Of a stretch of 51,092 nt of DNA, positions 30,940 to 40,152 are shown one piece after another. The stretch is from Cytophagales bacterium (GTDB lineage Bacteria > Bacteroidota > Bacteroidia > Cytophagales > Spirosomataceae). Location: positions 1 to 51,092 of the forward strand of contig JAAFKE010000026.1 in the NCBI GenBank assembly GCA_013298215.1, read 5' to 3'. The notes beneath the pieces were generated by a model that saw nothing but the letters and a program-made list of their open reading frames with translations, did no database searches and was not told where the DNA came from. The translations under genes were made by a program, and so were the position numbers. The stretch's first letter is position 1. The number at the start of each line of letters is the position of its first letter.

Positions 30940-33183
30940 CTATTCCTTTCGTTTGGCCGTTGCGGGCTGAAAAACCTCCAATATTTCTTTCATCCTGGGC
31001 AGCGACGCGCTGTTGGGGTAGTTTTTTACGAACTCGTTGAGGGCCTTCAAATAGTCGTCCTTGCCCCGAAGTTTTCCCGCCAAAAATACGTTCAACACCG
31101 CAAAACGGTCTTCTATCTGGCTGCCTGCGTATTGTAAAAGTGCGTCTTCGACCTTGGCCTGCGCCTCAGAATAATTGCTGTTTTTATAGAGCTCATACAC
31201 CGACGCGTAGGCGCGTAGTGCGTCGGCATCGCTCCCCGCCGACACCCCGCTGGCGTTGCGTAGCATCAGCCTGGTGTAGGAGGCCGCTGGGAACTCGGTC
31301 TGCAATTTCTCCCGCCAAACGGACTGTTTGGGGCTGTTTTCGGTCATCAAATAAAGTAAATAATAGGCCTCTGCCCTAAACTCAGTCTTTGGGTATTGGG
31401 CCACCAGCCGTTCAAAGGTTCGGATGGAGTTGGGCGTTTCGTTGAGCTCGTATTTGTAAATCTTACCCAGCCGGTAGAGTGCGTCCTCAACTTTTTTGTT
31501 CGACTGCTCTTTTTCTTCCTGCCGAAAAGGAACATTTGCCAATAGTGCATCCTTGCGAGATTTCCACTCGGGCGATCCTCTTTTTAGCGCATCTGAGTTG
31601 TCTATGCCAGCGGAGTTTATGGTCTCGCCGTTGTTGTTGGGTTTGGGGTTGTCGGCACTGCCCACCAATAGTTTTTCTTTTGAGCTCCGCCGCCAGTCGT
31701 CTTCCAACGTTCGGTTGCCCCACTTTTGCTTAAAATCAATTTTGCCCCGGCTCACCGCCACCGCATCGTAGAGCGAAAACCGCTCGGCGGGGTTGCCCTC
31801 AAAGTTATTGGACTGAATGAGCTTGGCCTGGTCGAGCAGTTGCTGCGCCAGTGCTGCTCTGGCCCTTTCGGCTTCAACTTGCTTCTCTATGACCTCATCC
31901 AACAGCTGATCCAATGCCACTGGGTTCATGTTGGCCAACCGTTGCAGGCTGTCTTCGGTTCGCACCACGGTGAGCTGCTTCACAAACTCGTCCAAGGTCT
32001 TTTTCCTTTCGGCAATTCGTTGATAATCAACAACATCTGGGGGTAGCAGCGCCAAGGTGCTGTCGTAGTATGCCTGCGCCAGTTCGTATTTTTGGAGTTT
32101 GTCGTAGTGCAACTGCGCCAGCTCCAAATACGTGTACGGAATCTGAACGGTGTTGGTGGTTGTTTCTTTGACCGACTTCTGGAAGTACGAAACCGCCAGT
32201 GGGTAGTTTGCCTTGCGGGTCTCTATCACGCCCATGGTGTAATAAATACGGTCTTTAAGGTCGCTATTTTTGCGGTCGGCCAGCATTTGTTTTAGGTCTA
32301 AATGCGTGCTGTTTTTGCCCGTAAGTGCCTCATTTTGTACGGCGTTCATGTTGGCAAAAAAGCCGAGGTCGTAGGCGGGGCGGTTCTCTTGAACCAACGC
32401 GTAGTGGTCGTTTGCTTTTTGATAATTGCCCAGAATATCGTGGAGTTGCCCCGCTATAAAGTGCAGCCTGGCCGTTTCTTCGTTTTTTTGCAGGCCGCCA
32501 AAAGTTGCATCTAAAACGGCCACGGCTTGTTTATACTCACCCCGGCGTTGGTGCAGGGTGGCTTTGGTGAGGTAGTATTTTACGGTATTTTCTTGGTTGA
32601 GGGGCTGCTGGCGCAGGTATTCGGCCACGTTTGCGGCGGCGGTGTAGTCTTCGGTTTCTAAGTAGCCGCGCATGAGGCCCACCACCGCGAGGTGTTTTTG
32701 GTCGGTGTTTTGGCCTTTTGTGTTCACATACTTAAAGGTCTCGATGGCCTCCCCAAATTTTTGGCGGTACAGTTTAGCAACGCCAATCATGTTGTAGGCG
32801 TTGTCGAGCCATTTGCTGTTTTGGTGGCGGTCGGCAATGGTCGATGCCTTTTTGATGGCATCCTCCAACAGTGGCCTAACCAGAATCGTTTTGTTTGAGT
32901 CGAGTTTTTCGTAAATTGGCAGCAACTGCGTGTAGGTATCTTTGCGCTCGTTGGCCATTTGCTCTTCGGCCAGTTTGAGTTTGTCGCGCGCAATTACGTA
33001 GGCATTGAAACGCGCCGTGAGGTTGTGGTAGGCCACTGGGAGCCGCCCCGTGCTATATTGGGAGCACGACAACAGCCCCAATGCGCCCAATAACGCGCCA
33101 AAAAGCCCACGGACGAACGCCGTGGGCCAGTTGTTCAAATACGAAAGTTTATTTTTAGGGTGATGCGGCACTTTTTGGTTCAA
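30940..33183 (-). CDS. TPR lipoprotein, PorW/SprE-like (type IX secretion)
   Basis: A 747-residue lipoprotein. A hydrophobic stretch ends in GLLSC (Cys40), a lipobox, and residues ~55-65 read YHNLTARFNAYV, like the N-terminus of PorW/SprE proteins. Several TPR helices follow, e.g. WLDNAYNMIGVAKLYRQKFGEAIETFKYV, LAVVGLMRGYLETEDYTAAANV and YYTMGVIETRKANYPLAVSYF. A central coiled region precedes a C-terminal TPR set (ALYRLGKIYKYELNETPNSI). PorW/SprE is required for type IX secretion and gliding, and here the neighbour genes encode a T9SS cargo and a sortase-like protein. No ATG starts the frame; the TTG at 33183 or another TTG 15 codons later must be used. Confidence 0.75.
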   Translation of the reverse strand: MNQKVPHHPKNKLSYLNNWPTAFVRGLFGALLGALGLLSCSQYSTGRLPVAYHNLTARFNAYVIARDKLKLAEEQMANERKDTYTQLLPIYEKLDSNKTILVRPLLEDAIKKASTIADRHQNSKWLDNAYNMIGVAKLYRQKFGEAIETFKYVNTKGQNTDQKHLAVVGLMRGYLETEDYTAAANVAEYLRQQPLNQENTVKYYLTKATLHQRRGEYKQAVAVLDATFGGLQKNEETARLHFIAGQLHDILGNYQKANDHYALVQENRPAYDLGFFANMNAVQNEALTGKNSTHLDLKQMLADRKNSDLKDRIYYTMGVIETRKANYPLAVSYFQKSVKETTTNTVQIPYTYLELAQLHYDKLQKYELAQAYYDSTLALLPPDVVDYQRIAERKKTLDEFVKQLTVVRTEDSLQRLANMNPVALDQLLDEVIEKQVEAERARAALAQQLLDQAKLIQSNNFEGNPAERFSLYDAVAVSRGKIDFKQKWGNRTLEDDWRRSSKEKLLVGSADNPKPNNNGETINSAGIDNSDALKRGSPEWKSRKDALLANVPFRQEEKEQSNKKVEDALYRLGKIYKYELNETPNSIRTFERLVAQYPKTEFRAEAYYLLYLMTENSPKQSVWREKLQTEFPAASYTRLMLRNASGVSAGSDADALRAYASVYELYKNSNYSEAQAKVEDALLQYAGSQIEDRFAVLNVFLAGKLRGKDDYLKALNEFVKNYPNSASLPRMKEILEVFQPATAKRKE

Positions 33184-33210
33184 TTTTCTAACAAAGTAAA
33201 CGCTTTATCT

Positions 33211-33218
33211 CAAAAATA
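33211..33218 (-). promoter_or_regulatory. Candidate -7 box of the PorW/SprE-like gene
   Basis: TATTTTTG on the minus strand matches TANNTTTG, 27 bp before the TTG start at 33183. No TTTG at 19-21 bp upstream was seen. Confidence 0.35.
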
Positions 33219-33297
33219 CGTATCAAAAACAGTGCTTAATTTTAGTTTGTGGGCGTTCGAGCAAACCAACTCATCTATTTACTTATGTTTCGATTTG

Positions 33298-33441
33298 TTA
33301 ATTAAAGTCGTTGGTATTCGTGAGTACGTCAAATTGCGAGCCTGTTTTGAGGGTTAGTTTGCGGACGCTTCCCATTTTTGTGAGCACAGGTTTTTTGTAT
33401 TGCTTCAGCCCTTTGCTTTTGGTCGTGGTGATATTTTTCAA
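33298..33441 (-). CDS. Lasso-type RiPP precursor peptide (overlooked short ORF)
   Basis: A 47-residue frame, MKNITTTKSKGLKQ then YKKPVLTKMGSVRKLT and LKTGSQFDVLTNTNDFN, starting at TTG 33441. No ATG is available before the motif, and an in-frame TAA lies five codons upstream. It fits the lasso leader pattern YxxPxLxxxGxxxxxT exactly: Y15, P18, L20, G24, T30. In lasso precursors the leader ends one residue after that Thr, which would give a 16-residue core starting at Lys32 with Asp at core position 7. A Lys1 ring would be unusual, so the product may not be a classic lasso. It lies 30 bp after a T9SS cargo gene on the same strand. The AsnB-like gene at 38377 is the only cyclase-like candidate in the window. 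No PqqD-like or transglutaminase-like protease gene was found nearby. Confidence 0.65.
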   Translation of the reverse strand: MKNITTTKSKGLKQYKKPVLTKMGSVRKLTLKTGSQFDVLTNTNDFN

Positions 33442-33471
33442 TGCCTTGTTATTTTAAGTGTTGGGGATGAA

Positions 33472-34872
33472 TTAACGATTAACAACAAATTTGAGACTCT
33501 GGCTTTGGCCTCCCTCAATGATCCGAGCAAAGTACACGCCTGGCTGCAAGCCGCTGATATCGACGGTCGTACTGGCTTTTTCGGCCTGCTTTTCGAGGCG
33601 CACGCGGCCCGCCATATCCACAATTTGCAATTTGCTTACCTCGGTCAATCCATTGACGGTCAAGTAGTCTGCGGTTGGGTTGGGCAACACGACCAACGCA
33701 CCGCTCTCTCTCACCGTGTAGCTTTTTACGGCCGAATACGTGAACGCACCGTTCAGATCGACTTGTTTGAGGCGGTAATAGTTAATGCCCACGGCTGGGT
33801 TTTTGTCTTCAAACAAATACTTCGACACGCTGGCGGTTGTACCCTTGCCGTCTACGCGCCCCACGGCCTCAAAAGACCGCACGTCGGCACTGCGTTCCAA
33901 CAAAAAGTGGCTATTGTCGCGCTCGGAGGCGGTTTCCCACTCGGCCACCACCGAGCGGCCTTCGCCGCGCAAGTTGAAAGTCGTTAGCTCAACTGGTTGG
34001 ACAACTCTTCGGATCTCGAAAACATCATAGACTACCTCCACTTGCGCCTCGCCTTTCATGCCAGGGTTAAAGCCCATGCGCCCGTCGGCGTTACCAAACT
34101 CGCGCCCAAAGTTACGAAGTCCGACGTTGGCCGTGAAGGTAACGTCGGTCGTGCCTCCCGCACCCAACTGGGCATTGTTGAGCGGAATAACCATCTCGGA
34201 GGTGTAGCCATTGCCAGCCCCTCCAAGGTTTTTTGTATTAACGCCACCACCACCAGGCTCAGACATTCCAAAAGTTGGATCGTCGTTGTTAAAAACAAAA
34301 TTACCCTCTGCGCCAGTGCCACTTTGCGTAAATCGGCTGTCGGCCCAGGCCATTGTCCAGAAAACGGTTCCGTTTAGTTTGGTACGGTTGCTGCCGCCGT
34401 TGCCGCCAATTACACTAAAAGTTGCGTCGCTACCGCCAGCGCCAGTGCCGCCCAAAATCTTGATCTTGGCACTGGTTGCCGACCAAACTGTACCGCCGGT
34501 GGCTCCCGCCGCAACGCCCGAGATCTTGTTGGTGTTGTCCCAAGCATTAAGCGTAACTTTGCGGCTCTGCGTCGAGTTTATGGTAGTTGCCTGGGCGTTG
34601 CAAACCCCCGAACCTGGCGAGCCAAACACCTGAACTTGAATGGTGGCGCAACCGTTAGTGACGGCCGATGATAGCGGCAGGCCAAAGCGCGTGTCTCCGG
34701 CCACATCGCCAGTGTTGGCGGCGGCGCTGGTGTAGGTGCTGGCTCCCACCTTAAACCATGCGAAACCATTTGCGGGCGTGGCAAAGCCCGCTGGCGTTGC
34801 CACAAATTGGGCCTCCGCCGTGGCAATGGCCAGCACCGAGCATAACGATAAAAATAGTAGCTTTCTTTTCAT
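33472..34872 (-). CDS. Exported protein with type A T9SS sorting domain
   Basis: A 466-residue protein with a signal peptide (MKRKLLFLSLCSVLAIATAEAQ). Residues ~25-275 are Gly/Ser/Thr/Asn-rich beta structure (TSAAANTGDVAGDTRFGLP, VWSATSAKIKILGG), function not recognised. A fibronectin-like module follows (VELTTFNLRGEGRSVVAEWETASE, SHFLLERSAD). The C-terminal ~75 residues are a Por secretion tail: VVLPNPTADYLTVNGL, LQIVDMAGRVRLEKQ, ISGLQPGVYFARI, SQSLKFVVNR. It should cross the outer membrane by type IX secretion and have the tail removed by a PorU-type sortase. A sortase-like gene is divergent from it. Confidence 0.88.
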   Translation of the reverse strand: MKRKLLFLSLCSVLAIATAEAQFVATPAGFATPANGFAWFKVGASTYTSAAANTGDVAGDTRFGLPLSSAVTNGCATIQVQVFGSPGSGVCNAQATTINSTQSRKVTLNAWDNTNKISGVAAGATGGTVWSATSAKIKILGGTGAGGSDATFSVIGGNGGSNRTKLNGTVFWTMAWADSRFTQSGTGAEGNFVFNNDDPTFGMSEPGGGGVNTKNLGGAGNGYTSEMVIPLNNAQLGAGGTTDVTFTANVGLRNFGREFGNADGRMGFNPGMKGEAQVEVVYDVFEIRRVVQPVELTTFNLRGEGRSVVAEWETASERDNSHFLLERSADVRSFEAVGRVDGKGTTASVSKYLFEDKNPAVGINYYRLKQVDLNGAFTYSAVKSYTVRESGALVVLPNPTADYLTVNGLTEVSKLQIVDMAGRVRLEKQAEKASTTVDISGLQPGVYFARIIEGGQSQSLKFVVNR

Positions 34873-35062: not shown

Positions 35063-38000
35063 TTGAACTTGACTCGACTACGTAGCCCGCACTTTTTATT
35101 TCTTTGGCTCTGCCTGATACTTTCAGCAATCGGTGGTTTTGCCCAACAGAACTGGTTAAAAACTGGCCAGATTTACCTTAAAATGCCCGTGGTGGAGGGC
35201 GGCATTTACCGTATTTATGCCGATGAGCTTAAACGCGCTGGTTGGGAGTTGGATAAAATAGACCCCCGTACAGTTCAGGTTTTTCACCGTGGGCGCGAGG
35301 TGGCCATTGGCTTAAACGACCAAACCGACGGACGGTTTGACCCCGCCGATTTTATTGAACTCTACGCCACCCGCAACAACGGCGCGGCCGATTCGGCGCT
35401 CTATCGCCCCACCAACGCCCAACCGCACCAACGCTACAGTTTGTATTCGGACACGACCTACTACTATTTGACTTACCAGACCAACGGCCAGTTGGGCAAA
35501 CGAATGGCGGTGGTGGGTGCTGCCAATGCCCCAGTGCCGCAAGCCGCCGAACCCTACCACCTCGAACGCCAACTAACGCTCCTTACCGACGAGTATTCGT
35601 TCAACTCGCGCACTGGGCCCGTGCCATTTTTGAAATACAGCCACTTTGAAAAAGGGGAGGGCTGGACTGGCAAGATGCGCAACAAAAATGTGGCGGGGCT
35701 GTGGAACGTAAAGCTCGATAATTGGGTAAAAAACGCCACCCCGCTGCCCCAGCTGTCTTTTCTGTTGCAGGGGCGCGACCAGTCGCCGCACCGGGTAGTT
35801 TGGCGCATTGGCAACGACGGTGCGCCCCAGGAGGTAGCCTTTCAAGACTTTGACCCCGAGCTGGTGCAGCAAACGGTCAATGCCAATTTGATTTCTGCCC
35901 AGAACGAATTTAGCCTCCAAACCCAATCGGTTGGCGGATTCGGTATTAATGACCGGTACTCGGTGAGTTACATTCAGACGGTGTTTCCGCAGGTTTTTGA
36001 TTTTAAAAACGAACGACAAAAATTTTATTATTTGCGGCCAAACCCCGCCCAGCGTTCGCTGGTGGAGATTCCGAACGTGCCGACAGGGGCTGCTTTGTAC
36101 GATCTGACCGACCCGCAATCGCCCATCGTTGTAGCATACGTGGCCCAAGGTGGAACGTTGCGAGCGGTGGTTTCGCAGACCCAAACCGCCCGAACGCTGC
36201 TGCTCACCGCCGATTTTAAGAAGGCAACGGGGTTGAGCCCTATTTTATATAAACCAATTGACCCCGCTCAGTTCGATTATTTGATTGTGACGGATGCGCG
36301 GCTGAAGCCCGCCGCCAACGCCTATGCTGCCTACCGCGCCACCGCGACGGGCGGCGGCTACCGACCGCTGGTGGTAGATTACCAAACCCTGCGCGATTAT
36401 TTTAACTACGGCGAACGCAGCCCATTGGCTATCAGGCGGTTTGTGGCGTTTATGCACAGTTCGGGAAAACCCAAAATGCTTTTTTTGGTGGGCCGAGCGG
36501 TGAGTATTTACGACACCCGCAACGAACTGGCATCGGCCGATTTGGTGCCAACGGTAGGCTACCCAGGCTCAGACCTGCTGCTGACGGATAACATGGCGGG
36601 TAGCCCAGAAAACGTGCCAAGCGTGCCAACGGGGCGGCTAAACGTGACCACCAACGCGCAAATTATGACGTACCTCAACAAGGTGAAGGAATTTGAGCAA
36701 CTGCCCACGACTACATCATGGCGCAAAAATATACTCCATTTAAGTGGAGGGAAGACGTTTGATGAGCTTGACGCTTTCAAACAAACCCTGGCCGACGTGG
36801 GCGAACTGGCGCAACAAAAATACGTGGGGGCAACCGTCAGATCCGTGGGCAAGGCCACAACCAATGCCGTCGAAAAAGCCAACGTTGCGCCCTTCATCAA
36901 CGCGGGGGTGGGAGTGGTGGCGTTTTTTGGACATTCGGGCTCAACGGTTACTGACCTGGACATTGGCTTTGCGTCTAAACCCGAAAACAGCTACCGAAAC
37001 AAGCAAAAATACCCACTCATGGTTTTTAATGGGTGCGGCGTAGGAAACGTGTTTTTTAACAACGATCCACTCACAACCGACTGGCTGCTAACGCCAGATG
37101 CGGGATCGGTGGCCATTATTGCCCACGATTATTTTAGTTTTTTTCAACCCAACGTACATTACTTGGGCAAACTTTACCAAACGCTTTTTCAGGACAGCAC
37201 CAGTTCTCATTTGCCCATCGGAACCATCTACCAGCGCACCGCCCAGCGAGTTGCGACGGCGTTTTTTGACCCCTACGACGTGGCCAATTCGCAGCAAATG
37301 ATTCTCCAAGGTGATCCAGCGGTGCGGTTTTTTCCGTTTACCAAACCCGATTTTGAAATCTCCGACAAGACTTTGACGCTCACTACCCGCCGGGCCAATG
37401 TGCTTTTTGCGGTCGCCGACTCGGTATTTTTGAAAGTTCCCGTGCAGAACTTGGGGCGTTTCGACCCCGCTCAGGTGTTTAGGGTGAGCCTAAAACGAAC
37501 GCTCAACGACGGAAAAGTGCTGACAACTACCTTGGCTGGCAAAATAGATACGCTCACTTTTAAGGTGGAGAACAACCCAAACGTGGTGCTTTGGGAAGTG
37601 AAAACCGACAGCGACAACGCCGTCGATGAAATAAACGAGAAAAATAACGCGGCCCAACTGGCGGTAACTTTCCGCGAGTTGTTGGAGGTGTCGGTGTTTT
37701 CGCGCGCGCTTTTTCCTGACCGAACGCCGCCCATTTTAGAAGTGTCGGCCGATGGACGGCGCCTGGCCGAAAACGATTTTGTGGCCGCCAGACCAACGCT
37801 CGGGGTGCTGGTGATCGACGACAACCCCATGGACAACCTCCCAGATTCGGCGGCGGTGGAGGTCTTTTTGCAGCGCCCTTGCGGCCAGTGCCCATTAGAA
37901 AAAGTGACCGCCAAGGTGGCATCTATCAAATGGAGCAACCCAAGTCGAAATGTTTTGCGGGTCGATCTCGGCCTCGAAACCCTACCAACGGGCAAATATC

Positions 38001-38374
38001 AGTTGCGCGTGCGGGCCACCGATGCCGCTGGCAACGAGGCAAACAAAGGGACTTATGCCGTGGGTTTTAGGGTGGGAGCGGGCGAGCAGTTGGATAATCT
38101 ACGGGTATTCCCGAATCCTGCCGTTGGTTTTATTCAGTTTAATTTTACTCCGAATGAAGCCCAAGTTGGCGAAGCAGCCGTGCTGAAAATTTACAACGTC
38201 GCTGGCAGGCTGGTTAAACAAACGGTGTTTAATATGCAGGCGGGCGAAAACCGCGTTTTTTGGCTGGGAGACGCGGGCGAAAACGGACGGGCGGCAGCGG
38301 GGGTTTATTTGTACGACCTCAAGTCAGAAAACGGTAAGTTGGCCAAAACAGGGCAATTTTTCTACGCCCCCTAA
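35063..38374 (+). CDS. PorU2-like type IX secretion sortase (C25 peptidase family)
   Basis: A 1103-residue protein starting at a TTG. An in-frame TAA lies three codons upstream, and the signal peptide (SPHFLFLWLCLILSAIGGFAQQ) follows at once. The N-terminal part is PorU-like beta structure (GIYRIYADELKRAGWEL, VQVFHRGREVAI). A C25 (gingipain-type) domain spans about 400-780. It has FVAFMHSSGKPKMLFLVGRA, the catalytic His624 in VVAFFGHSGSTVTD and Cys658 in MVFNGCGVGNVFF. The C-terminus is a sorting-type domain (LRVFPNPAVGFIQFNF, AAAGVYLYDL). PorU removes the C-terminal signals of T9SS cargo and joins the proteins to surface glycan. The size and own tail fit the PorU2 subgroup of Cytophagales. 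Two bases separate it from the AsnB-like gene. Confidence 0.85.
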   Translation: MNLTRLRSPHFLFLWLCLILSAIGGFAQQNWLKTGQIYLKMPVVEGGIYRIYADELKRAGWELDKIDPRTVQVFHRGREVAIGLNDQTDGRFDPADFIELYATRNNGAADSALYRPTNAQPHQRYSLYSDTTYYYLTYQTNGQLGKRMAVVGAANAPVPQAAEPYHLERQLTLLTDEYSFNSRTGPVPFLKYSHFEKGEGWTGKMRNKNVAGLWNVKLDNWVKNATPLPQLSFLLQGRDQSPHRVVWRIGNDGAPQEVAFQDFDPELVQQTVNANLISAQNEFSLQTQSVGGFGINDRYSVSYIQTVFPQVFDFKNERQKFYYLRPNPAQRSLVEIPNVPTGAALYDLTDPQSPIVVAYVAQGGTLRAVVSQTQTARTLLLTADFKKATGLSPILYKPIDPAQFDYLIVTDARLKPAANAYAAYRATATGGGYRPLVVDYQTLRDYFNYGERSPLAIRRFVAFMHSSGKPKMLFLVGRAVSIYDTRNELASADLVPTVGYPGSDLLLTDNMAGSPENVPSVPTGRLNVTTNAQIMTYLNKVKEFEQLPTTTSWRKNILHLSGGKTFDELDAFKQTLADVGELAQQKYVGATVRSVGKATTNAVEKANVAPFINAGVGVVAFFGHSGSTVTDLDIGFASKPENSYRNKQKYPLMVFNGCGVGNVFFNNDPLTTDWLLTPDAGSVAIIAHDYFSFFQPNVHYLGKLYQTLFQDSTSSHLPIGTIYQRTAQRVATAFFDPYDVANSQQMILQGDPAVRFFPFTKPDFEISDKTLTLTTRRANVLFAVADSVFLKVPVQNLGRFDPAQVFRVSLKRTLNDGKVLTTTLAGKIDTLTFKVENNPNVVLWEVKTDSDNAVDEINEKNNAAQLAVTFRELLEVSVFSRALFPDRTPPILEVSADGRRLAENDFVAARPTLGVLVIDDNPMDNLPDSAAVEVFLQRPCGQCPLEKVTAKVASIKWSNPSRNVLRVDLGLETLPTGKYQLRVRATDAAGNEANKGTYAVGFRVGAGEQLDNLRVFPNPAVGFIQFNFTPNEAQVGEAAVLKIYNVAGRLVKQTVFNMQAGENRVFWLGDAGENGRAAAGVYLYDLKSENGKLAKTGQFFYAP

Positions 38375-38376
38375 CC

Positions 38377-40152
38377 ATGAAAAAGTGCGTGCGTTTTGAG
38401 GGTGCTCGAGTTCATGTTGGGCAAACGGAGGTTTATTTCGAGGGAAAAATAAAAAATACCGATGAACTTGCGGGTATTTTTTTGACCCGCAACCCCGCCG
38501 ACCTGGCAGTGGCGGCCTACCAGCGTTGGGGCCACAATTGTGTGCAGCATTTGTTGGGAACGTTTGCGTTGGTGGTTATTGATCCAGTGGCGCAGCGCAT
38601 TTTCTGCGCCCGCGACCCGTCGGGCACCCACCCGCTTTATTATTGTTTTGAACCCAACCATTTTTTTGCCTTCGGAACGCGTATTCAGGACGTTTTGAGT
38701 TTTGAAAATGTGCCAAAACACATTGATAACCAAACCATTGGGCGTTATTTGAGAGGTGCGCAAGATTACAGCCCATACGCGCCCGACTCTTTTTACGAAG
38801 CCGTCAAACGCATCGAACCAGGTTACGGGGTAAGTTTCAGCGCAGGCGCGATTGCCAACAAAACGGCGTGGCCGCTGCCGTTGTACCCAGAAATCTCAAC
38901 CCATACCGAGCTAACCGAATCGGATTGGGTTGTTCGTTTTGCCGAACTTTTCAATGAGTCTGTTTCTTTCCAAACCGACCACTGCCAAACCATTGGTAGC
39001 CACTTGAGCGGTGGTTTAGACTCATCGTCGGTGAGTGCGGTGGCTCAACTCAAAAATCTAAAACCCATTGAAACGGTGCAGGTTCATACGGGTCTCGAAA
39101 CCATCGACGAACGCCCGTTTGCGGAGGCCGTGGCCCGAAACAGTGGAACGTCGCACCACGTGGTGCAACCCTCCGACCAAGTTTGGCAACAGCTCACCGC
39201 CACCACCGCGCTGCTGGGCTACCCGCACCAGCTTGCCCTGCCACCGTGTTTTCACTGGGCGGCATCGGCCAAAGCAGCAGAATTGGGCTGCGATGTGCTG
39301 CTTACGGGCCACGACGGCGACACTGTGGTGGGCTACGGCAACGGCCACGTTCAGACCATTCTTGAGCAACGGCAATGGGACAATTTGGCCCTGGCGATGG
39401 CGCAATTGGCGCGTAAAAGAGATATTTCTAACTTGGTGAAGAACTGGGATAGCCTCTCCGAAACCGAGAAAATAAGTGCTTTTGAGGTGGCGTTTTGGGG
39501 CAATGAGATCAAGAAATCGCTCCAAAATAGGGCGTTTTTTAGTACGCTTAACCATTTATTTTCGGCTTCTCTGCGCTTTGGGGTGTACCCTTGGCAGGTT
39601 TTTGAGTGGTGGCGCAAACGCCGCCCGCCCGCTACCTCCGCACCCCGCACCGAAGCCGTGCATTTTGCGATTGACAAACGGGAAATTAAAGAAAACCCAG
39701 CCACCAAAGCCACCCACTACCAACAGATTTACTGCGGGCGAATGTTGGACGTGACCGAGCAGCTCACCCACGTGGGGCGGCATTTTGGCCACCAGTACGC
39801 GCACCCGTTCTACGACCGCGAGCTGGTAGCACTTTGCTTGGCCACGCCCGAAAAGCTACGGTTCGACCACGGAAGTGGGCGCGGGCCGCTGCGACGCGCC
39901 ATGCGCGGTGTTTTGCCCGAAATAACCCGTTTGCGCACTCAGAAGTCGTATTTTAATGCCTACAACCGACAAGTGAGCCAGCTTATGGCCACCGACGCGC
40001 TCGGAATATTTGGCAAAAATCACCCACTTTGGCAACACGCCAACCGCGAGCTCTTTGCGCGGAGTTGCCAAAACTTTTCGGATCAACCGCCCTCGTTGCT
40101 GCATTTTAATGCGGTGCTTCAACTGGGCATTTGGTTAGACACCCGCCAGTAG
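38377..40152 (+). CDS. Asparagine synthetase-like protein without glutaminase Cys (lasso-cyclase-like)
   Basis: A 591-residue protein of the AsnB superfamily. The N-terminal ~190 residues keep the class II amidotransferase fold (LAVAAYQRWGHNCVQHLLGTF, ARDPSGTHPLYY) but start MKKCVRF in place of the MCGI start, so the catalytic Cys2 is missing and glutamine cannot be hydrolysed in the normal way. The synthetase part has the ATP-binding PP-loop GSHLSGGLDSSSV (S211-S217), DVLLTGHDGDTVVGYG and a C-terminal HPFYDRELVALCLATPEKL. A dead glutaminase domain with an intact PP-loop is typical of lasso cyclases and other adenylating relatives. It may be the cyclase for the precursor at 33298, or it may amidate a sugar for the neighbouring sortase system. 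Its end overlaps alaS by 18 bases. Confidence 0.75.
   Translation: MKKCVRFEGARVHVGQTEVYFEGKIKNTDELAGIFLTRNPADLAVAAYQRWGHNCVQHLLGTFALVVIDPVAQRIFCARDPSGTHPLYYCFEPNHFFAFGTRIQDVLSFENVPKHIDNQTIGRYLRGAQDYSPYAPDSFYEAVKRIEPGYGVSFSAGAIANKTAWPLPLYPEISTHTELTESDWVVRFAELFNESVSFQTDHCQTIGSHLSGGLDSSSVSAVAQLKNLKPIETVQVHTGLETIDERPFAEAVARNSGTSHHVVQPSDQVWQQLTATTALLGYPHQLALPPCFHWAASAKAAELGCDVLLTGHDGDTVVGYGNGHVQTILEQRQWDNLALAMAQLARKRDISNLVKNWDSLSETEKISAFEVAFWGNEIKKSLQNRAFFSTLNHLFSASLRFGVYPWQVFEWWRKRRPPATSAPRTEAVHFAIDKREIKENPATKATHYQQIYCGRMLDVTEQLTHVGRHFGHQYAHPFYDRELVALCLATPEKLRFDHGSGRGPLRRAMRGVLPEITRLRTQKSYFNAYNRQVSQLMATDALGIFGKNHPLWQHANRELFARSCQNFSDQPPSLLHFNAVLQLGIWLDTRQ

Follow-up and report, generated by a model that had tools for sequence, protein, structure and literature searches.

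A short minus-strand frame in a 51,092-nucleotide contig of a Cytophagales bacterium (GenBank JAAFKE010000026.1; the whole of this stretch is called the window here) raises the question of whether it encodes a lasso-type RiPP precursor and, if so, what role such a peptide would have, given that the neighbouring gene codes for a surface protein of the type IX secretion system (T9SS). The frame translates as LKNITTTKSKGLKQYKKPVLTKMGSVRKLTLKTGSQFDVLTNTNDFN, with the first codon, TTG, read as the starting M and no in-frame ATG ahead of it. On balance we think it probable, from the sequence evidence assembled below, that the frame encodes the precursor of a lasso-type RiPP, which acts jointly with a T9SS surface protein and is coupled to the attachment of that cargo. 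The coordinates of the relevant features are collected in Table 1.

Table 1. Features of the window discussed in the text (positions are those of the window).
Feature	Position	Strand	Remarks
Lasso-type RiPP precursor gene (candidate)	33298..33441	minus	47 codons + stop, TTG start; NF033521, 25/119 genomes
Predicted leader, residues 1-31	33349..33441	minus	YxxPxLxxxGxxxxxT, Thr30 = position -2
Predicted core KTGSQFDVLTNTNDFN	33301..33348	minus	Lys1-Asp7 ring predicted
Partner T9SS type A cargo, 466 aa	33472..34872	minus	30 bp upstream of precursor; TIGR04183
Partner cargo C-terminal sorting domain, residues 396-464	33481..33687	minus	Pfam Por_Secre_tail match; 33478..33687 in a second scan
T9SS lipoprotein gene porW/sprE (neighbour, outside the claimed pair)	30940..33183	minus	NF052312 598.4 bits, cut-off 250
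PorU2-type C25 sortase gene	35063..38374	plus	NF052324 877.6 bits, cut-off 450; His (FFGHSG), Cys (NGCG)
AsnB-like lasso-type cyclase gene	38377..40152	plus	2 bp behind PorU2; NF033535 best NCBIfam family

The original prediction had placed the frame in a gap of nearly 290 bp, 30 bp from the stop of the cargo gene, with the residues of the lasso leader motif at Y15, P18, L20, G24 and T30. These details hold: the precursor lies in a gap of 288 bp between its two neighbours (33183 to 33472), the cargo stop is 30 bp from the frame, and the five residues are found exactly where they had been put. The search with lasso leader models that it proposed also gave a match, to NCBIfam NF033521 (lasso_leader_L3), at 22.1 bits (cut-off 19), and at E <= 10 this model matched nothing else in the 3.55-Mb genome. 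Scores against Pfam DUF5972 (16.1, cut-off 22.6) and NCBIfam lasso_cyano (18, cut-off 33) fell below the cut-offs. A further leader family, NF033524, was rejected, as its single match in the genome lies on contig C10 and scores 11.6 bits (cut-off 27).

Because the frame is short and starts with TTG, it might be taken for a chance open reading frame, which we consider scarcely credible given its conservation in relatives. The single sequence used as query found relatives, with a best E value of 2e-9, in 13 of 58 other genomes, all from the same taxonomic family as the window, and a profile built from 26 relatives identified 69 places in 25 of 119 genomes. In the 26 relatives the leader Y, G and T and a core Gly and Ser are invariant, and the leader Pro and Leu and the core Lys and Asp are conserved in at least 90%, so that the conserved homologues carrying the leader motif for which the original prediction asked do exist. 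Also against chance are the leader model score over its cut-off and the placement of the frame relative to the cargo gene, which is the same as in the relatives. The earlier view that a real precursor gene had been overlooked is therefore upheld, and its reading of the small gene as lasso-type is supported by the leader and homology data.

In lasso precursors the leader Thr occupies position -2 relative to the cut site, and we used this rule to place the cut, which would fall after Leu31. The core then starts at Lys32, and its acidic residue is Asp at core position 7 (counting Thr30 as -2); both had been predicted, and both agree with the translation. Gly or another small residue is usual at position 1 of a lasso core, without being strictly defining, and the Lys1 of the window core is unusual for a lasso peptide. 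The earlier guess that the product may represent a new lasso class is borne out by the relatives. The 89 hits reduced to 69 distinct precursors, consisting of 67 of the 69 profile places plus two Dyadobacter loci. Two places were dropped: a G023 place is interrupted by in-frame stop codons, and a G010 place (in L134) lacks a usual start codon, its core likewise being Lys1-Asp7 and a cargo gene following it. With Thr taken as -2, 54 of the 69 have Lys1-Asp7 cores, 14 have Ala/Gly1-Asp8 cores and one has an Asn1-Glu9 core, and mixed types were not found among them. Lys1-Asp7 is thus a sharp class, for which a seven-residue ring is predicted.

The cores are also more alike within genomes than between them. 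Mean core identity is 0.77 within a genome (67 pairs) and 0.41 between genomes (1364 pairs), compared with 0.62 and 0.50, respectively, for the last 20 leader residues. Some of the within-genome pairs are recent duplicates and others are not. For instance, in G010 the precursors of L132 and L133 have identical cores, whereas their leaders are 45% alike and the N-termini of their cargos are unrelated by score; likewise, G020 and G033 have near-identical cores beside unrelated cargos. Cores of different types in G010 share only 0.27-0.5 identity, and this genome has three PorU2-lipoprotein-cyclase sets and three Lys1-Asp7 core types. Diversified cores are the norm in ordinary bacteriocin families; near-identical cores beside unrelated cargos fit a moiety used in common better than an antibiotic that diversifies.

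The original prediction regarded the vicinity of a cargo gene as an odd place for such a precursor. This part did not stand, as it is instead a conserved arrangement: 50 of the 54 Lys1-Asp7 precursors have a T9SS cargo gene as a same-strand neighbour. By script, a gene with a T9SS C-terminal domain (CTD) was found within 260 bp of 47 of the 54, always on the same strand (36 upstream and 11 downstream of the precursor), and closer reading added three pairs (L042, L022 as L146, and L119 as L148). Among the unpaired loci, L052 stops at the contig end and L073 has a cargo-type gene 5.7 kb downstream, while closer reading found no T9SS cargo gene in L021 and L027. The script found a cargo beside none of the 15 precursors outside the Lys1-Asp7 class, with hand reading covering only some of them, and pairing differs by core class with a Fisher value of ~1e-10, calculated ignoring ancestry. 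Since the CTD profile of the script had been built from such cargos, they were rechecked with public models, and 43 of the 47 script-found cargos matched TIGR04183 (E 0.01) and 40 matched Pfam Por_Secre_tail (E 0.001). The window cargo has a type A sorting domain, scoring 52.4 bits with TIGR04183 (cut-off 23) and 48 bits with Por_Secre_tail. Other Pfam domains in the 47 are few and mixed (ice-binding in five, receptor L domain in three, SdrD and SpaA types in one cargo each).

This arrangement bears on one alternative, in which the product is a free lasso peptide of the ordinary kind, acting as an antibiotic or a signal, and its genes lie near T9SS genes by happenstance. It would agree with the presence of lasso enzymes, with the classic-looking Gly/Ala1-Asp8 precursors that occur without cargo in the same genomes as the Lys1-Asp7 class, and with two Runella clusters in which an ABC-transporter-like gene adjoins an Ala1-Asp8 precursor (L067, 8159-9961; L131, 7644-9407; both loci also hold PorU2 and lipoprotein genes). 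We nevertheless regard it as unlikely, because the chance of a CTD gene as neighbour is ~0.2-0.3% per site, a hand estimate from the 33 CTD matches of the window genome, to be set against the 50 of 54 found; in addition, the cores are uniform within genomes, and a cluster of nine genes in a row (L069) has no exporter among them.

The enzymes expected for a lasso pathway were found in the window genome, scattered over three contigs. An AsnB-like enzyme, the type that the original prediction named for the cyclisation, is present in the window itself, with a lasso cyclase family as its best NCBIfam family. It was overlooked at the time, as was a PorU2-type sortase gene; the two lie 1.6-6.7 kb from the precursor. 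The cyclase scores 254.7 bits with NF033535, below the cut-off of 525, which is reached in none of the 119 related genomes; it is over the cut-offs for Pfam Asn_synthase and GATase_7 and keeps an SGGLDSS motif. Its best sequence match among solved structures is 7ylz, a hydroxyamidotransferase (45 bits), and its predicted structure has a mean pLDDT of 64.1. The searches for PqqD-like and transglutaminase-fold protease genes were likewise productive. A single PqqD-like protein exceeds the Pfam PF05402 cut-off in the genome (61.6 bits against 23.4, contig C22), which scores 65.3 with NF033536, below the cut-off of 80, and a B2-type protease on contig C63 scores 72.9 bits with NF033537 (cut-off 33). 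The latter gene directly precedes a second, long PorU2 gene (1655 aa; L036, 7748-13232), apart from the precursor. A second B2-like gene, on C22 (L037, 14695-16323), scores 32.2 bits, just under the same cut-off, and has an NTP_transf_5 gene after it; no precursor was found in its vicinity. Against our favoured reading, then, are the window cyclase and PqqD under the NCBIfam lasso cut-offs, the scattering of the enzymes and the position of the lipoprotein described below outside the window.

The AsnB-like gene could also be interpreted as making the amidated linking sugar of T9SS anchoring, in the manner of WbpS, in which case the small gene would not be its substrate. Glutamine amidotransferases of the WbpS type have their catalytic Cys directly after the start Met. 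The window enzyme begins MKKCVRF, with no MCG there or in the 13 in-frame codons upstream. In relatives the cyclase gene adjoins the genes for the precursor, PqqD and B2, which also argues against this interpretation. Its attraction is that P. gingivalis anchors T9SS cargos with the help of WbpS, which is related to AsnB (PMC7468200). However, TIGR03108, which that paper identifies as the WbpS type, gives only 132 bits with the window enzyme (cut-off 816.9), compared with the 254.7 bits for the lasso cyclase family, and we judge a sugar-amidating role very improbable.

Across the relatives the lasso enzymes co-occur with the precursor. The B2 protease is over its cut-off in all 25 precursor genomes and in 10 of the 94 others; counted by hand at the genus level, it occurs in 15 of 15 precursor genera and in 7 of 57 others (Fisher ~1e-10). 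A lasso-type cyclase occurs in 24 of the 25 precursor genomes, with none listed in G034, which is 63% complete. Genes for PqqD, B2, cargo, precursor, cyclase, lipoprotein and PorU2 are found together in several loci, and in several a kinase-like gene and an NTP_transf_5 gene join PqqD and B2; the nine-gene row of L069 is one such locus. Rhabdobacter roseus also has a compact cluster (L099), and carriers include Runella, Dyadobacter and Arundinibacter. In G020, precursor-cargo pairs are located at 1.20, 2.78 and 5.32 Mb and the cyclase-PorU2 pair at 3.38 Mb. A protein of ~354 aa containing cysteine is encoded near PqqD and B2 in L049 (3623-4687) and L074 (7875-8936), and that of L049 has no Pfam match over cut-off. 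The Runella rosea plasmid NZ_CP030852.1 (35967-53679; L097) carries cargo, precursor, cyclase, lipoprotein and PorU2 genes on an 88-kb record, the annotation of which names the precursor a hypothetical protein and the cargo an ice-binding family protein.

The gene directly ahead of the window cyclase encodes a PorU2, for which the NCBIfam label is putative sortase. It scores 210.6 bits with the model of the T9SS sortase PorU (NF033707), under the cut-off of 420, and matched no solved structure by sequence at E 0.001. As a family, PorU2 is often present where lasso genes are not, being over cut-off in 97 of the 119 genomes. Its linkage to the cyclase tracks the precursor: of the short-PorU2 loci fetched from precursor genomes, 27 of 31 (window included; the loci without one are L140, L150, L151 and L152) hold a lasso-type cyclase, compared with 1 of 26 PorU2 loci in genomes without a detected precursor (L088, from a genome carrying B2). 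The fetched loci are a subset of the PorU2s, and because those of precursor genomes were partly picked for a cyclase seen nearby, the fractions do not represent an unbiased sample. L075-L078 and L091 were picked by PorU2 alone, and L150-L152, without cyclase, were added last. The long PorU2 paralogues fetched from precursor genomes (L036, L093, L094 and L096) and the ordinary PorU2 of L065 have no cyclase beside them. Two Dyadobacter loci (L113, 7366-19301; L116, 7373-19313) each combine a lipoprotein, a Gly1-Asp8 precursor, a cyclase and two PorU2 genes; that of L113 also holds a PorZ gene, and the second PorU2 of both gave no NGC-type motif in a motif scan.

We built quick trees of PorU2 (53 rows) and of the cyclase (43 rows). 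Duplicates L098, L099, L100, L102 and L103 were omitted from both and L127 from the PorU2 tree; the PorU2 rows L043 and L073 were labelled 'alone' by a distance rule, though a cyclase is present in both loci, and the cyclase label K1D7 was assigned by genome where the locus had no precursor. Lasso-linked PorU2s stand apart from ordinary ones, and the window PorU2 branches at the base of the ordinary ones (100%) and not within the lasso-linked set, which speaks either for an early or separate origin of its linkage or against counting it as a plain member of that set. In the cyclase tree, which was composed without a WbpS sequence, the window enzyme is split from the two asparagine synthetases of its own genome at 100% and groups with the Lys1-Asp7 cyclases at a support of only 82. 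Three Runella Lys1-Asp7 cyclases fall among the classic ones, so that the pairing either is ancient or had more than one origin.

Taken together, family, cargo pairing, Lys1-Asp7 class, co-occurrence of lasso enzymes and cyclase-PorU2 linkage are shown by the sequences. From these we infer the maturation, the ring, its possible threading and the joint action with cargo and PorU2. By analogy with the lasso family, the PqqD-like protein of contig C22 would bind the leader and the B2 protease of contig C63 would cut after Leu31. The AsnB-like enzyme of the window would then join the alpha-amine of Lys1 to the side chain of Asp7 by an isopeptide bond, closing a ring through which the tail may be threaded, and the product would act at the T9SS attachment step of the adjoining cargo, served by the adjacent PorU2-type sortase.

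It is conceivable that the matured lasso stays unattached, either as a non-covalent partner of the cargo or as a regulator or inhibitor of the PorU2-type peptidase. The same gene linkage would be expected, and PorU2 of the lasso loci keeps its Cys-His pair and so could be the target of the peptide. The presence of one precursor per cargo, with several scattered pairs per genome (as in G020), and the limitation of Lys1 to the cargo-paired class favour use for each individual cargo instead, leading us to rate an unattached product as rather doubtful.

The boldest form of our preferred reading, joint action with the cargo, is protein tethering, in which the lasso peptide would replace the sugar linker and PorU2 would cut off the sorting domain and join the cargo C terminus to the free Lys1 epsilon-amine; each surface protein would then carry, or be anchored by, the lasso peptide encoded beside it. 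The acceptors known for T9SS, from oral pathogens such as P. gingivalis, are amines, namely seryl or glycyl groups on sugars (PMC7468200), and a Lys side chain free of the ring would be a comparable amine, which is what suggests covalent attachment. Tethering would account for the restriction of cargo pairing to the Lys1 class (50/54 compared with 0/15) and for the uniformity of cores within a genome. A cut one residue further upstream (Leu1-Asp8) would likewise leave this lysine side chain free. We put tethering forward tentatively, as a possibility less likely than not.

Compared with known lasso systems, the present one is alike in its leader motif, RRE-like PqqD, B2 protease, AsnB-like cyclase and acidic core residue 7, and it differs in having Lys1 instead of Gly/Ala, in its T9SS cargo pairing, in its linkage to PorU2 and a lipoprotein, and in cores that are near-uniform within a genome. 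Lasso peptides are mainly known as free antibiotics, inhibitors and signals. Xanthomonins, which begin with Gly, are the nearest likeness in ring size, with seven residues as predicted here, and are unlike the present class in their first residue and in the T9SS linkage seen here. The precedent of a seven-residue ring is taken from the title of a reference in PMC13352647. With T9SS sortase attachment (PorU, PorV, PorQ, PorZ and linking sugars) the loci share a C25 protease that has the Cys and His residues and cargos whose C-terminal domains are of type A, and the Dyadobacter locus shares PorZ as well; PorU2, however, is a separate family from PorU, and a ribosomal peptide and lasso enzymes are linked to it here. 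A literature search with most subscription papers outside its reach gave no paper that names PorU2 and none that joins a lasso peptide with type IX secretion; by listing, the combination of lasso and Por secretion system returned only a venom review and that of lasso peptide and Cytophagales only endosymbiont work.

The pairing suggests that some bacteria may make tied peptides to equip or anchor surface proteins. If true, a lasso family paired with surface proteins and linked to a sortase would have a structural or anchoring role; the precursor would give PorU2, a putative sortase, a testable substrate, and it would become testable what T9SS sortases join cargos to outside oral pathogens.

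The lipoprotein of these loci (Lpp, 217-258 aa), which is usually near the cyclase and PorU2, is marked by conserved YCQ and CIGKG motifs. Because it is present in 95 of the 119 genomes, it was ruled out as a specific lasso marker; in the window genome it is found on contig C34 only. A genome-contig scan with a set of closer Lpp sequences yielded 19 loci. The predicted Lpp structure (mean pLDDT 90.3) resembles PDB 3fzx, YmcC-like (Z 12.9, rmsd 4.9 over 173 residues), and 4fvs (Z 12.4, rmsd 4.6 over 165 residues), with LolA and LolB entries among the lower matches; such matches of a predicted model assign no function. In a Spirosoma panaciterrae locus in which no lasso genes were found (L105, 10001-12332), Lpp overlaps the gene of an S8-like protease with a T9SS tail, and in six further Spirosoma/Arsenicibacter loci a frame of similar size lies beside Lpp. 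A distant relative of Lpp (30% identity) is encoded in L115 (9896-10684), from a Thermoanaerobaculia MAG, a record named outside Bacteroidota.
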